A DNA stretch of 64,000 nt, taken from NCBI RefSeq assembly GCF_016743775.1, contig NZ_JAEQMY010000022.1:1-64000 (forward strand). The letters run 5' to 3'. The notes beneath the pieces were generated by a model that was given only the letters and a program-made list of their open reading frames with translations, ran no database searches and was not told the DNA's origin. Below are positions 28,031 through 34,510 of this stretch, piece after piece. Each line of letters starts with the position of its first letter. Position 1 is the stretch's first letter. This DNA comes from Microvirga aerilata (GTDB taxonomy: Bacteria > Pseudomonadota > Alphaproteobacteria > Rhizobiales > Beijerinckiaceae). Both the position numbers and the translations under genes were made by a program.

Positions 28031-28405
28031 TCACTGCGAGCGGCAGCGACCGGTCTTGGTTGTCTCGCGGTCGCCGTCATCATAGTTGATGCCGATCGTC
28101 TCGCCGCCCAGTGACGCGATCTTCCCAGGATACCACTTTCCAGCGCCCTTGAAGTTGCACTCCACTCGACCGCCGATAGCCCAATTGTACGGCCTTACGG
28201 CACTGACGGAGAGGGTCTCCCGATCACCGTCGTCGTAAGCCACGGTGATGTTCTCACCGGATACTGCTTGGATGACGCCAGGATACCAGTAACCACCGCC
28301 CTTGTACTTGGCGAGAACCCAGTCGCCCTTGGATTGAGCGTGAGCCGAGCCCATGCCGGCGATCAGGCCCATCATGATGAGCCCGAGCTTATAAGAATTC
28401 TTCAT
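28031..28405 (-). CDS. Exported protein with two Tudor/Agenet-like repeats
   Basis: The 124-residue product starts with a signal peptide (MKNSYKLGLIMMGLIAGM, cleavage likely after SAHA near residue 23). The mature part is two similar units of about 45 residues. Unit 1 holds KGGGYWYPGVIQAVSG and ITVAYDDGDRETL; unit 2 holds KGAGKWYPGKIASLGG and IGINYDDGDRET. The W-Y-P-G-x-I and Y-D-D-G-D-R-E blocks resemble the small barrel of Tudor or Agenet domains, known as binding modules. A tail GRCRSQ closes the protein. I start at 28405 because the upstream in-frame ATG would bury the signal peptide. The ligand is unknown. Direct repeats lie on both sides. Confidence 0.8.
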   Translation of the reverse strand: MKNSYKLGLIMMGLIAGMGSAHAQSKGDWVLAKYKGGGYWYPGVIQAVSGENITVAYDDGDRETLSVSAVRPYNWAIGGRVECNFKGAGKWYPGKIASLGGETIGINYDDGDRETTKTGRCRSQ

Positions 28406-28574
28406 ACTATACTGCCCCCAGCAAGGCCGCAGGAGCGCGGCCAAGTTACCGGGTATAGAAACCTAACGTGAAGTTCAATGACGTTTGGGAATGCGAGCGC
28501 CTTATTGTGGCTGATACTTAACACTTCAAGTACAGCCGGGCGTTGGCCTCACTCTGATCTAACGCTCATTTGCG

Positions 28575-30160: not shown

Positions 30161-30541
30161 ATGGTTACCACCCTTGCAACATCCCTGTTGAAGCCGGCCC
30201 GGAACGCCCCTGTCGAGGAGCGGATCGAGGGCAATTGGCACGTCTATCCGCTGGAGGCGGCGCTGGAGCTCGACTATGTGGACCAGGCCGGCAACGCGAC
30301 CCGGCGCTGGGTGCTGGCGCGCGAGCTGAAGGTGGGCCCCGGCAAGATGCTGCTGGGCGGCATCGACATCCTGCTGGACGACGGCTATCGCGGCTTCCGG
30401 GTCGACCGCATCCAGCGCCTTGAGGATGCGGAGACCGGGTTCGTGGTCGAGCACAACATCCTCGATTGGCTCATGAAGCTCGCCGAGCGGCAGGCCAAGG
30501 CCCGGAAGAAGCACATCGCCCGCACCCAAGCCAGCGCCTAA
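30161..30541 (+). CDS. WYL-like domain protein without a helix-turn-helix
   Basis: The 126-residue protein reads like a lone WYL-type barrel: residues 34-51 (LELDYVDQAGNATRRWVL) match the first strands, and RGFRVDRIQRLEDAETG near 85 matches the conserved R-x-F-R-x-D-R-I segment of WYL domains, which bind nucleic acids or nucleotides in many defence and stress regulators. No DNA-binding helix-turn-helix is present before it, unlike typical WYL regulators. A basic helix (about residues 105-122) ends the protein. I choose the ATG at 30161 for its fit to the family. It precedes the peptide-exporter genes by 126 bases on the same strand, so a link is possible but unproven. Confidence 0.6.
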   Translation: MVTTLATSLLKPARNAPVEERIEGNWHVYPLEAALELDYVDQAGNATRRWVLARELKVGPGKMLLGGIDILLDDGYRGFRVDRIQRLEDAETGFVVEHNILDWLMKLAERQAKARKKHIARTQASA

Positions 30542-30626: not shown

Positions 30627-30654
30627 TGCAACATAGTGACATATTCATGTTGCA
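30627..30654. promoter_or_regulatory. Inverted repeat upstream of the exporter operon, candidate operator
   Basis: TGCAACAT at 30627-30634 and its exact complement ATGTTGCA at 30647-30654 are separated by 12 bases, so the half-site centres lie 20 bases (two helical turns) apart. The repeat ends 13 bases before the TTG start of the membrane-fusion gene. Spacing suits a dimeric regulator, but a transcript hairpin near the ribosome-binding site would also fit. Confidence 0.5.
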
Positions 30655-30667
30655 TTGAGGCGATGGG

Positions 30668-31918
30668 TTGACCCAGCAATCCTTGTTCCGGCCGCAGGCC
30701 GTCATGGCGGCCACGGGCGAGCATTCGTCCGTGTCGCTGCCGATTGCGCCCATCTCCTGGCAGCTGCTCGGCGGTTTCATCGTCTCCTGCATTCTTGTCA
30801 TCGTCGGCTTCCTCGGAACCGCCGAATATGCCCGCAAGGAAACCGCGAGCGGATCCCTCGTGGCAGCCGGCGGGGCGGTTCGCATCGGCCCGATGCGCGA
30901 GGGCGTGGTTACCCGGCTGATGGTCAAGGAAGGGGACCGGGTGGCGGCGGGACAGGCGCTTTTCACCGTCGCCTCACGCCAGGGGCTGGAGGCCGGCGGC
31001 ACCCTCGACGGGGCGGTTCTCGCCGCGCTGGAGACCCAAGCCACGGTGCTCCAGGAACAGATCGCCGCAGATCCGGCCCGCATGGCCAACGAGATCCTGC
31101 GCCTGGATGCCACGATGGCCGCGGTGGCCGCGGAGCGGGACGCGCTCTCCGCCCAGCGCCGGCTCATGGTGGAGCGTGTGCAGGTGACGGAGGAGCGGCG
31201 CAACACCATCGCCCGCCTGAACCAGCAGGGGCACACCACCCGCGCTGCCCTTCAGGAGCAGGACGAGGCGGTGCTCACCCGCCGGCAGGAACTCGCCGAG
31301 ATCGACCGGCAGATCGCGGCGACCGAGAAGGAGCTGGGCCAAGCCGAGCTCCAGCGCGAGCAGCTGCCGGTGCAGCAGGCCGAACGCCTGGCCCAGCTGC
31401 GCCTCAGCCTCGCGGACAAGGAGCGGCAGCGGGCCGAGGCGCAGGCGCAGCGAGCCCAGGTGATCGCGGCTCCCTTGGCGGGTCGCGTCACGGCGCTCCA
31501 GGCCGCTCCCGGCCAGATCGTCGATCCCCATAAGCCCCTTCTCACCCTTCTTCCCGACGGCGCGAGCCTTCTGGCGGAGCTGTTCGTGCCGAGCCGGGCC
31601 ATCGGCTTCGTCGAGCCCGGCCAGCCCGTGCGGCTGATGGTCGACGCCTTTCCCTATCAGCGCTTCGGCACCCAGAAGGGCACGGTCGAGACCGTGTCGC
31701 AGGCGGTGCTCTCGCCCAACGAGGTGATCGGCAAGGTGGCGCTGTCCGAGCCGGCCTATCGGGTCACCGTGCGCCTCGACCGGCAGGATATCGACGCCTT
31801 CGGGCGGCGGGTCGCCCTCCAGCCCGACATGACCCTCAAGGCCGACATCGTCCTGGAGGGCCGCTCCCTCGTCGCTTGGCTCTTCGAGCCGCTCATCGGC
31901 GTCAGGGGGCGGATGTGA
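30668..31918 (+). CDS. HlyD-family membrane-fusion protein of a peptide exporter
   Basis: This 416-residue periplasmic adaptor links an inner-membrane ABC exporter to an outer-membrane channel. It has a short cytoplasmic start, one membrane helix (about residues 34-54), a lipoyl-like half (GAVRIGPMREGVVTRLMVKE), a long coiled-coil hairpin (about 130-265), the second lipoyl half (PLAGRVTALQAAPGQIV) and a beta-barrel domain. It resembles the CvaA/RaxA type. The start is a TTG: GAGG at 30657-30660 sits seven bases before it, and the nearby ATG at 30663 is out of frame. It overlaps the ABC gene by four bases (GTGA). No TolC gene is in the window. Confidence 0.92.
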   Translation: MTQQSLFRPQAVMAATGEHSSVSLPIAPISWQLLGGFIVSCILVIVGFLGTAEYARKETASGSLVAAGGAVRIGPMREGVVTRLMVKEGDRVAAGQALFTVASRQGLEAGGTLDGAVLAALETQATVLQEQIAADPARMANEILRLDATMAAVAAERDALSAQRRLMVERVQVTEERRNTIARLNQQGHTTRAALQEQDEAVLTRRQELAEIDRQIAATEKELGQAELQREQLPVQQAERLAQLRLSLADKERQRAEAQAQRAQVIAAPLAGRVTALQAAPGQIVDPHKPLLTLLPDGASLLAELFVPSRAIGFVEPGQPVRLMVDAFPYQRFGTQKGTVETVSQAVLSPNEVIGKVALSEPAYRVTVRLDRQDIDAFGRRVALQPDMTLKADIVLEGRSLVAWLFEPLIGVRGRM

Positions 31919-34080
31919 GGCTCTCCGCACAGCTCGATTTCTTCGGCGGGCCGCGCCTGCCGGCGATGATCCAGTCGGAAGCCGCCGAGTGCGGCCTCGC
32001 GTGCCTGGCCATGGTCGCGACCTTTCACGGGCGAGAGGTCGATCTCACAGCGCTGCGGCGCCTGTTCTCCGTCTCGCTCAAGGGCGTCACCCTCAAGGAC
32101 GTGCTGGCCATGGGCCAGCGCCTGGGCATGACGGGTCGGGGCCTGCGGCTCGAGCCGGAGCAGCTGGGCGAGATCAAGCTGCCCTGCATCCTGCACTGGG
32201 ACATGAACCACTTCGTGGTGCTGAAGACGGTGAGCGCCCGGACGGTGACGATCCACGACCCCGCCGTGGGCGTGCGTACCCTCACCCTGGACGAGGTTGG
32301 GCGCCACTTCACCGGGATCGCTCTGGAGCTGACCCCCACGGGCAGCTTCGAGCGCAGGAAGGAAACCTCGCGCCTGAGCCTCACGGCACTCTGGGGACGC
32401 ATGCCTGGCATTAAGCGGGCGCTCGCTCAGGCGCTTGTGCTCTCGGCCGTGCTGCAACTGGTGGTGCTCGCCGCCCCCTTCTACATGCAGCTTGCGGTGG
32501 ACGAGGCGGTGATGAAGGGCGATGGGGGCCTGCTCACCGCGCTGGCCCTGGGCTTCGGGCTCTTGACGCTCGTCCATATCGGGGCGGACTGGCTGCGCTC
32601 CCATGTGCTGCTGTTCTTGAGCGGCGCGCTTAATTTCCAGATGGGAGCGAACCTCTTCCACCATCTCGTGCGCCTGCCCCTGGCCTGGTTCGAGAAGCGG
32701 CATATCGGCGATCTCGTGTCGCGCTTCCGCTCGGCGGAGCCGATTCAGCGGCTGATCTCCGAAGGCCTGGTGGCGGCCCTTGTCGACGGCGTGATGGCGA
32801 TCCTCACCCTGGTGATGATCCTGATCTACAGCCCCAAGCTGTCGGGCATCGTGCTTGCGGCGCTGGTGCTCTATGGGCTCCTGCGCTTTGCCCTCTACCG
32901 GGCCCTGCGCCAGCGTCAGGAGGAGATGATCGAGGCCGCCGCCAAGGAGCAGACCACCTTCATCGAGACCGCGCGGGCCATCCAGAGCATCAAGATCTTC
33001 GGACGCGAGGCCGACCGGGAGGCGCTCTGGCAGAACCGCTATGCGGACGAGATCAGCCGGGGCATCCGGCATGGCCGTTTCACCATCGGGTTCAAAACCG
33101 CCAACGACCTGATCTACGGGATCGAGAACGTGCTCGTGGTCTATCTCGGCGCCAGGGCCATCATGGCGGGCGAGCTTTCCATCGGCATGCTCTATGCCTT
33201 CATGGCCTACAAGGAGCAGTTCCTTTCCAAAGCCACCAACCTGATCGAGACCGGCATCCAGTATCGGATGCTCGACCTGCATCTCGACCGGCTCTCCGAC
33301 ATCGCGCTCGCCGAGCGGGAGCAGGACCGGCATGGGGAGAGCCTCGTGCCCCGCGAGGTCAGGGGCGCGGTGGAGCTCGAAGGGGTGAGCTTCCGCTATG
33401 CCGACACGGAGCCGGAGGTTCTGTCCGGCGCGAACCTCAAGGTCGAGGCCGGCGAGTTCGTGGCCGTCACCGGCCCCTCGGGCGGCGGCAAGACCACGCT
33501 CCTCAAGATCATGCTGGGCCTGTTCAAGCCCATGGAAGGCACCGTGCTCATCGACGGCACGCCCCTCGAGCATTTCGGCACCCGGGCCTTCCGCTCGCAG
33601 GTGGGCGTGGTGATGCAGGACGACCAGCTCCTGTCGGGATCCATCGCCGAGAACATCGGCTTCTTCGACGCGACCCTTGATCTCGACTGGATGCGCGCCT
33701 GCGCCGAAGCAGCCGGGATCGACGACGAGATCATGGCCATGCCCATGAACTACAACACGCTCATCGGCGACATGGGCACCACCCTGTCGGGCGGCCAGCG
33801 CCAGCGGGTGCTGCTCGCCCGCGCGCTCTACCGCCGCCCGCGCATCCTGTTCATGGACGAGGGCACCTCGAACCTCGACCTCGACAAGGAGCGGGAGGTG
33901 AACCGGGCGCTGGCGGAGCTGAAGATCACCCGCATCGTCATCGCCCATCGCCCGGAGACGATCCGCGCCGCCGACCGGATCGTGGTGCTGCGCGAAGGCC
34001 GGGTTTCCCCGCCCATGGACGGCGACGCGCTGGCCTTCACCGAGGCGGCCCGGCATACGACGGGCCTGAGCCGCGCATGA
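31915..34080 (+). CDS. Peptidase-containing ABC exporter for double-glycine peptides
   Basis: This 721-residue protein both cleaves and exports peptides with double-glycine leaders. The N-terminal C39 domain (about residues 1-135) has QSEAAECGLACLAM with the catalytic Cys26, then NHFVVL and HDPAVG supplying histidine and aspartate, so the peptidase looks active. A six-helix membrane domain spans about 165-440. The ATPase has Walker A GPSGGGKTT near 520, signature LSGGQRQR near 624 and Walker B RILFMDEGTSNLD near 643. The GTG start at 31915 overlaps the hlyD stop. It resembles CvaB/RaxB. A 39-residue leader peptide gene lies convergent, 215 bases beyond its stop. Confidence 0.95.
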   Translation: MRLSAQLDFFGGPRLPAMIQSEAAECGLACLAMVATFHGREVDLTALRRLFSVSLKGVTLKDVLAMGQRLGMTGRGLRLEPEQLGEIKLPCILHWDMNHFVVLKTVSARTVTIHDPAVGVRTLTLDEVGRHFTGIALELTPTGSFERRKETSRLSLTALWGRMPGIKRALAQALVLSAVLQLVVLAAPFYMQLAVDEAVMKGDGGLLTALALGFGLLTLVHIGADWLRSHVLLFLSGALNFQMGANLFHHLVRLPLAWFEKRHIGDLVSRFRSAEPIQRLISEGLVAALVDGVMAILTLVMILIYSPKLSGIVLAALVLYGLLRFALYRALRQRQEEMIEAAAKEQTTFIETARAIQSIKIFGREADREALWQNRYADEISRGIRHGRFTIGFKTANDLIYGIENVLVVYLGARAIMAGELSIGMLYAFMAYKEQFLSKATNLIETGIQYRMLDLHLDRLSDIALAEREQDRHGESLVPREVRGAVELEGVSFRYADTEPEVLSGANLKVEAGEFVAVTGPSGGGKTTLLKIMLGLFKPMEGTVLIDGTPLEHFGTRAFRSQVGVVMQDDQLLSGSIAENIGFFDATLDLDWMRACAEAAGIDDEIMAMPMNYNTLIGDMGTTLSGGQRQRVLLARALYRRPRILFMDEGTSNLDLDKEREVNRALAELKITRIVIAHRPETIRAADRIVVLREGRVSPPMDGDALAFTEAARHTTGLSRA

Positions 34081-34131
34081 GCGGGTCGCGTGGAGCCAAG
34101 GGGCCACAGGATGCGCCGTTTGAACAAGGGA

Positions 34132-34179
34132 GCATCGGATGGACCCCAAAAAGTGCAAACCCACTTCCGGGTCCGATGC
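34132..34179. repeat. Dispersed palindromic repeat, family A, right half only
   Basis: GCATCGGA at 34132 faces TCCGATGC ending at 34179, with a GACCC/GGGTC inner stem interrupted by mismatches. Only the right unit of the two-hairpin element seen at 35759 is present. It lies between the convergent exporter and peptide genes. Confidence 0.65.
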
Positions 34180-34185
34180 ACGAGA

Positions 34186-34216
34186 CGAAAAAGGCGCGGC
34201 CTTGAAAAGCCGCGCC
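34186..34216 (-). terminator. Factor-independent terminator of the leader-peptide gene
   Basis: GGCGCGGC and its complement GCCGCGCC form an eight-base stem with an eight-base loop, followed on the minus strand by TTTTTCGTC. It lies 80 bases past the peptide stop codon, so the small gene forms its own transcription unit. Confidence 0.85.
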
Positions 34217-34295
34217 CCTGTTGCCGGCGATCCGGTTCAACGCGGGAGGCGCTCAAGGCCGAGACCTTCGCGCCTCCGTCGCGCCACCGGAGCGA

Positions 34296-34415
34296 TCAGC
34301 AGCCTGAGTAAACGATGATCCGGCGACCGCCTGCAACCGCAGCGAGATCCTTCTCGCTGAGCTCGACGATCACCTTCTTGTCTTTCTTCTCAGTCTTGGT
34401 CTGCGTCTTCTTCAT
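34296..34415 (-). CDS. Double-glycine leader peptide, probable exporter substrate
   Basis: This 39-codon gene encodes a lysine-rich start, then [14 protein letters not shown] (residues 17-30), a classic double-glycine leader with the conserved leucine, acidic and valine spacing before GG. The remaining core is only nine residues, RRIIVYSGC, ending in cysteine. GGAGG five bases before the ATG fixes the start at 34415; a longer in-frame version from 34481 has no ribosome-binding site and would spoil leader length. The C39-type exporter and fusion protein next door are the expected processing machinery. Whether the mature product is a signal, a bacteriocin, a disulfide dimer or a modified peptide cannot be told. 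I see no modifying enzyme or immunity gene nearby. Confidence 0.85.
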
Positions 34416-34425
34416 GAAGACCTCC
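34416..34425 (-). promoter_or_regulatory. Strong ribosome-binding site of the leader-peptide gene
   Basis: GGAGG at 34425-34421 (minus strand) with a five-base spacer to the ATG decides the 39-residue start over the 61-residue alternative. Confidence 0.85.
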
Positions 34426-34479
34426 CCACCCTTCGGGTGTTGTTGAAGTACCAATCCCTGGCCCTCCGGCCAGTGATAC

Positions 34480-34510
34480 ATAATAACAATATATCGGGTC
34501 AGGGAGTCAA
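34480..34510 (-). promoter_or_regulatory. Candidate promoter of the leader-peptide gene
   Basis: On the minus strand TTGACT (34510-34505) is followed after 19 bases by TATTAT (34485-34480). Shifting by a base or two gives weaker -10 boxes with shorter spacing. The AT-rich run is unusual for this genome. The resulting leader to the start codon would be about 60 bases. The same spacer also serves the divergent rnd gene. Confidence 0.45.

Follow-up and report, generated by a model that had tools for sequence, protein, structure and literature searches.

Peptide signalling through ATP-binding cassette (ABC) exporters with a C39 peptidase domain is well documented in Gram-positive bacteria. The ComAB/CSP and BlpAB/BIP systems of pneumococcus combine a double-glycine (GG) leader, spaced hydrophobic leader residues and a C39 exporter, and some of their members are described as pheromones in the sources cited (PMC7595303, PMC7018657). 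For Gram-negative bacteria, functions of C39 exporters beyond toxin export have been called probable but lacking in evidence (PMC10986499), and PteB of Synechococcus elongatus with its small GG substrates EbfG1-4 is one case of a non-toxin role outside the Gram-positives (PMC4997328). Here we describe a gene of 39 codons in a stretch of 64,000 nucleotides of the Microvirga aerilata genome (contig NZ_JAEQMY010000022.1, positions 1 to 64,000; hereafter the window), which encodes a GG precursor and lies beside genes for a membrane-fusion protein (MFP) and a C39 ABC exporter. This gene is genuine; in the genus its occurrence is tied to that of the exporter, and the conserved unit of its cargo is the six residues RR[IV]I[VIL]Y. 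We put the chances at about even that the product is an exported GG signal peptide whose cargo is unusually short and comes in two alternative cores.

Similarly to the pneumococcal systems, the locus has a GG leader with hydrophobic spacing and a C39 exporter, but it belongs to a Gram-negative bacterium, includes an MFP, has a cargo motif of only six residues, and no two-component system was recognised adjoining the precursor gene. Class II microcin cassettes consist of a GG precursor, a C39 ABC exporter, an MFP and a TolC-type channel; their products are described as having approximately 5-10 kDa, with an immunity gene typically next to the precursor and 51 amino acids for the smallest immunity protein (PMC10233263). 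The Microvirga cargo, in contrast, has a computed mass of 0.8-1.1 kDa (1.07 kDa for RRIIVYSGC, 0.82-0.83 kDa for RRIIVY and RRIILY), it is not glycine-rich, its core is conserved across species, and the exporter side leaves no room for an adjacent immunity gene in 12 of the 15 genomes that hold the peptide. It is also smaller than the EbfG1-4 proteins and, to our knowledge, shorter than any characterised C39 cargo. In Synechococcus, furthermore, four GG proteins are made from one four-gene transcript and the role described is in biofilm formation (PMC4997328). HetC of Nostoc PCC 7120 is a C39 exporter proposed to export a regulatory peptide, and the account cited gives no GG gene near HetC and leaves the substrate unidentified (PMC10986499), whereas the Microvirga GG gene is adjacent to its exporter and conserved. 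In the literature searched no paper joins Microvirga with double-glycine and none contains RRIIVY. The RaxX-RaxSTAB system of Xanthomonas comprises an MFP, RaxA, and a protein with a C39 domain, RaxB. Its secretion genes serve a tyrosine-containing peptide (PMC6637879), which differs in having a precursor of 60 residues and a sulfated tyrosine; no sulfotransferase was recognised among the nine open reading frames (ORFs) of the window that were scanned. RtgS was considered as a model of a short C39 cargo and set aside, as its export is reported to depend on PptAB. We place the Microvirga locus in the double-glycine/C39 group, with an unusually short cargo and a probable core switch.

Matches to the precursor occur in 17 of 48 genomes of the genus (E <= 0.1), and 15 of these have, next to the exporter, a gene in which RR[IV]I[VIL]Y comes after a GG leader; the remaining two are a precursor of another type, KVNEYEGQHR (G007), and a longer, repetitive GG peptide (G044). 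The six-residue core is conserved at least as strongly as the leader, the ratio of nonsynonymous to synonymous polymorphism (pN/pS) being 0.152 over the six codons of the core and 0.254 over the final 13 of the leader (105 pairs, 15 genomes). Retention in 15 of 48 genomes beside the same exporter, together with the mostly silent changes in the core codons, rules out a chance ORF, and the 39-codon gene with a strong ribosome-binding site singled out by the original prediction therefore stands, as does its description as a GG precursor with a very short cargo beside its exporter. C39 exporters are described as recognising hydrophobic residues at leader positions -4, -7, -12 and -15 (PMC7018657), where the window precursor has V, L, L and I, respectively. 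Leucine is found at -12 and -7 in all 15 precursors, position -4 is Val in 12 and Ala in 3, and -15 is Ile or Val in 9 and Pro in 6.

An exporter at least 83% identical to that of the window is present in 18 of the 48 genomes (in pieces in G024 and G004) and one of 66-72% identity in eight more. Fifteen of the 18 have the peptide gene next to the exporter, and it was found in none of the remaining 30 genomes (Fisher 7e-10, uncorrected for phylogeny). Absence of the small frame from relatives that keep the exporter, which the original prediction had named as grounds for giving it up, is confined among these 18 to three genomes, an outcome in favour of the prediction: G045 (M. tunisiensis), G025 (M. 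sesbaniae) and G033 (Microvirga sp. 3-52). The exporter loci examined share one chromosomal slot between aspS and rnd/ppx/ppk, so far as this can be judged at contig and locus ends, and in the same 15 genomes the peptide gene is located between exporter and rnd. It is convergent to the exporter genes and has a conserved promoter-like region of its own, which fills the interval of 169-184 bp (14 of 15 genomes; 289 bp in one) from peptide start to rnd. The distance from exporter stop to peptide stop is 59-85 bp in nine genomes and 117-124 bp in three, therefore too small for the smallest known immunity protein in 12 of 15; the other three have 215 (window), 394 and 416 bp. Every exporter of at least 71% identity among the 80 named loci belongs to Microvirga, and the nearest exporters outside the genus (65-67%; L074, L076, L077, L078) stand beside longer GG peptides. 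At L022 and L023 identity is only 68-69% for the MFP but 92% for the ABC protein, which suggests that the MFP gene was replaced there.

The cargo RRIIVYSGC of the window had been predicted as a nine-residue core with a C-terminal cysteine that could form a dimer, a thiolactone or another modification. Its shortness is borne out; the length of nine and the SGC tail, however, are particular to this genome among the 15, and the conserved unit is RR[IV]I[VIL]Y, present in all of them, and not a nine-residue core ending in cysteine. In seven genomes the cargo ends at the tyrosine, and the other eight have the tails SGC, SDR, STTS (twice), QTTF, QTDC, QCR and QTTSCI, so that anything from nothing to six residues follows. 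In cyclic thiolactone autoinducers of the AgrD type a conserved cysteine forms the ring. A tail cysteine is found here in four of 15 cargoes and is the last residue in two, and a thiolactone or cysteine dimer is therefore unsupported and was rejected. Where GGG precedes RRIILY or RRVILY, the register with Val at -4 and with Leu at both -7 and -12 is the one cut behind the third glycine, and cleavage there would release a hexapeptide. Beside its RRIILY gene, genome G006 has a divergent second precursor (L010 / L028, 4089-4286) with the cargo RRIIMHDPCCIKCMSK, which contains three cysteines; it was included in the alignment and excluded from the 15 and from the pN/pS figures.

An alternative core exists in the genus. 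A profile built from three other precursors matched 21 of the 48 genomes (E <= 0.1): seven with VNEYEGQH, 13 RRIIVY holders mostly by way of the leader, and G038. In each of the seven (G022, G007, G003, G025, G045, G014 and G041) the GG precursor ends in R[KQ]VNEYEGQH(R), the first R of which follows GG either directly or after MT or LLT. All seven have the slot exporter and none has RRIIVY, so that the 15 holders of one core and the seven of the other show zero overlap among the 26 genomes with a slot exporter (hypergeometric 5e-4, uncorrected for kinship). In the exporter tree (29 rows, G024 and G004 left out) the two kinds of holders are largely separate. One subclade, G045/G025/G033 (support 100/98), lies inside the RRIIVY part (fork 96/89); two of its three members have KVNEYEGQHR and none has RRIIVY. 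From the branching it looks like KVNEYEGQHR replaced RRIIVY in this subclade; alternatively, it may have been retained there and then lost elsewhere. The gene stands before the MFP gene in G003 and G022, some 13-16 kb off in G014, G041 and G045, and on another contig than the exporter in G025 and G007. Its neighbours in G014 are a molybdopterin oxidoreductase, a lytic transglycosylase and a protein without Pfam match, with no receptor recognised among them. The KVNEYEGQHR family would presumably leave the cell by the same exporter.

Taken together, the following course of events can be proposed. The adjacent C39 exporter would recognise the precursor by its leader and cut it after GG, and export would proceed through the MFP and a TolC-type channel encoded in the genome. 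The product would be a basic, hydrophobic oligopeptide with RRII(V/L)Y as its working part of six residues, the SGC tail of the window genome being dispensable. It would act outside the cell, or after re-uptake, as a signal, with a receptor encoded elsewhere, and other Microvirga with the same exporter would use the short core KVNEYEGQHR instead. Cleavage, export and signalling are steps that we infer. A signalling role is favoured because the cargo is much smaller than a class II microcin, because 12 of 15 exporter-side gaps are too small for an immunity gene, because the core is conserved at least as much as the leader, and because the two cores exclude each other. The original prediction had ranked signalling level with killing, and this is supported in that signalling is at least as likely. 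More tentatively, and short of an even chance, Microvirga may possess a peptide language of its own, in which a one-slot C39 exporter serves either a hexapeptide of the RRII(V/L)Y type or the mutually exclusive KVNEYEGQHR in the manner of a pherotype switch.

Several observations weigh against a signal peptide. No receptor, import system or regulated gene has been identified; no receptor-like protein was found among the nine window ORFs scanned, the rest of the genome not having been searched for receptors. Pheromones often diversify between species; this core hardly changes across 15 of them, a pattern also in keeping with a constant target that is non-bacterial or a surface. Two of the 15 cargoes have AKKD or KCD inserted between GG and RR, and with these three or four extra residues the predicted N-terminus is therefore not constant. 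The second precursor of G006 does not keep the tyrosine, and the KVNEYEGQHR gene is frequently away from the exporter. Three of the 15 drafts have an intact peptide gene beside a broken exporter frame (L027, L029, L051), with an internal stop in G026 and two frames in G024 and G004, in the latter also at contig ends; draft errors are a possible cause. The gap of 215 bp in the window, in which small ORFs were not scanned, could hold a small gene. In addition, the window genome encodes a second GG precursor (G000:C233 near 39485; L203, L217), found with a broader leader model, with a glycine-rich cargo of approximately 60 residues and no exporter seen in the surrounding 13 kb. The exporter may therefore have another substrate, and the complete cassette originally proposed is not shown to be a dedicated one; the idea that the RRIIVY precursor is the exporter's exclusive substrate was dropped.

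What else the peptide might be has to be judged against the same observations. It could be an ultra-short antibacterial, a cationic and hydrophobic mini-microcin directed at related bacteria, with resistance encoded elsewhere or not needed. The core is indeed basic and hydrophobic, the longer GG peptides next to the closest exporters of other genera are in some cases (L074, L076, L078) hydrophobic and bacteriocin-like, and the window gap could accommodate a small gene; but the 59-124 bp available in 12 of 15 genomes are too few for the adjoining immunity gene typical of class II microcins, which has 51 codons or more, the cargo is well below microcin mass, and its core is at least as conserved as the leader, so that we regard killing as unlikely. 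Slightly less likely again is a peptide directed at a host or a surface and not a bacterial pheromone, acting on plant receptors as RaxX does or, like EbfG, on biofilm. The holders M. lupini AT3.9 and M. zambiensis are legume-nodule species, but M. flocculans, M. arvi, M. terrestris and M. arsenatis, which also hold the gene, are not known as nodule bacteria, and neither a sulfotransferase nor another modification gene was recognised among the nine ORFs. For the biofilm variant there is the parallel of Synechococcus, where the small GG proteins on which biofilm depends are reported to need the C39 exporter if they are to be secreted efficiently (PMC4997328).

The kept motif with free flanks, having insertions before it and a variable tail after it, could also resemble the recognition site of an enzyme. 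RRIIVY would then be modified, for example at Tyr or Arg, by an enzyme encoded elsewhere, and the mature product would be a small ribosomally synthesised and post-translationally modified peptide. We find this improbable, given that the nine scanned ORFs include no modification enzyme and that the flanking gene order, aspS, rnd, nudix, ppx, ppk, is ordinary. A still fainter prospect is that a longer GG peptide is the main exporter substrate and the short ORF a minor or relic one. The precursor at G000:C233 in the same genome would suit it, as would the longer GG peptides encoded before the MFP gene in some relatives (L022, L026, L031); against it, the short peptide is kept beside the exporter in 15 of 18 genomes with its core under selection, and a leader-pattern scan within 5 kb of the window exporter returned only the RRIIVY precursor and one overlapping out-of-frame match, judged spurious.

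The features of the locus are collected in Table 1. The MFP gene begins with TTG in the window and, by eye, with GTG at the same place in most close relatives. The exporter ORF begins at 31876 in the ORF list; the real start is probably the GTG at 31915, overlapping the MFP stop. Alignment of the C39 domain with the solved protease 6mpz spans 11-145 and that with the PCAT structure 4ry2 spans 20-151, and its Cys, His and Asp blocks match theirs at what we take to be the catalytic positions, in agreement with the three catalytic residues predicted for the exporter beside the MFP. It is the sole Peptidase_C39 match in the 6.83 Mb window genome (G000). The predicted lack of immunity, kinase and modification genes was confirmed for the nine window ORFs scanned. 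The lack of a channel gene applies to the locus; another contig carries the gene for a TolC-type protein, a single open frame in which PF02321 matches twice.

Table 1. Positions of the features discussed, in window coordinates unless a locus is named.
Feature	Position	Strand	Evidence or remark
Precursor gene, 39 codons and stop	34296..34415	-	ORF translation; retained in 15/48 genomes of the genus
Leader, codons 1-30 of precursor gene	34326-34415	-	
Cargo RRIIVYSGC, codons 31-39 of precursor gene	34299-34325	-	
Conserved hexapeptide RRIIVY within cargo	34308..34325	-	RR[IV]I[VIL]Y in 15/15
Ribosome-binding site GGGGAGG before ATG	34421..34427	-	GGAGG in 15/15 aligned genomes
Promoter-like boxes TTGACT (34505-34510), 16 bp, TGTTAT (34483-34488)	34483..34510	-	
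Inverted repeat CTGGCC-GGAG-GGCCAG	34458..34473	-	Directly downstream of promoter-like boxes
Hairpin GGCGCGGC...GCCGCGCC between convergent genes	34193..34216		Sequence
MFP gene (HlyD-type)	30668..31918	+	HlyD_3 match 9.6e-22; TTG start
C39 ABC exporter gene	31915..34080	+	Peptidase_C39 3.1e-33, ABC_membrane, ABC_tran
Inverted repeat TGCAACAT-N12-ATGTTGCA before MFP gene	30627..30654		Sequence
KVNEYEGQHR-family loci	L044 12707-12961, L048 13346-13534, L165-L171		

Upstream of the precursor gene, TTGAC is present in all 15 aligned holder genomes and TGTTAT in 12. The inverted repeat that follows may be a hairpin of the 5' untranslated region or an operator. An RNA hairpin before the gene was tested and is not claimed: in the 11 of 15 sequences with equal spacing (G024, G005, G047 and G019 left out), 90.9% of cells were paired against 90.3% after shuffling, with covariation not above control, and slid versions reached at most 59.1%. 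The hairpin between the convergent genes is perhaps a terminator common to both. In the repeat before the MFP gene, the arms GCAAC and GTTGC are both present, by eye, in 12 of the 18 closest genomes. A conserved small protein without Pfam match (30164-30541) adjoins the exporter in many Microvirga loci, and its counterpart in G022 is on the opposite side of the exporter. Further off, the product of 28031-28444 has a signal-like N-terminus and two Tudor/Agenet-like stretches, a domain unusual in bacteria.

Outside Microvirga, no GG precursor with the RR core was found in 397 genomes of the family (43 genera, E <= 0.01), where six genomes of other genera matched, and 397 genomes of the order (142 genera, E <= 0.001) gave the window's own genome only, with three other matches having different cargoes; at most 18 candidates were scored per genome in both searches, so misses are possible. 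The string GGRRIIVYQ in G209 (L152), one of these six genomes of the family, belongs to a 42-residue frame antisense to a long ORF and without leader pattern, and was taken for chance. Among 72,556 plasmid records there was no match to the precursor at E <= 1. Other GG precursors came to light as well. L159 (1465-1578) and L020 (1468-1611) encode short ones with the cargoes KVSMTDFHFIIG and RGLGVGKVSLQDFN, which have a KVS..DF stretch in common; L150 (1354-1590; G330, another genus of the family) has the six-residue cargo VRKSIR; and L151 (1111-1707), away from the slot exporter in G044, encodes the GG peptide APIIVYAAPITFDLRETYAMPVVRARPIVLDLR..., in which PI-V-DLR-like units recur and a stretch IIVY occurs.

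The conservation of RR[IV]I[VIL]Y shows that selection can clearly act on a very short cargo. If the proposal of two exchangeable cores is true, Microvirga would offer a Gram-negative case of a pherotype-like switch. The exporter and its presumed substrate lie side by side and are both conserved, and the peptide is cheap to synthesise, so the question is directly testable, in soil bacteria for which no harm is known, and the species with the other core may serve as a natural control.

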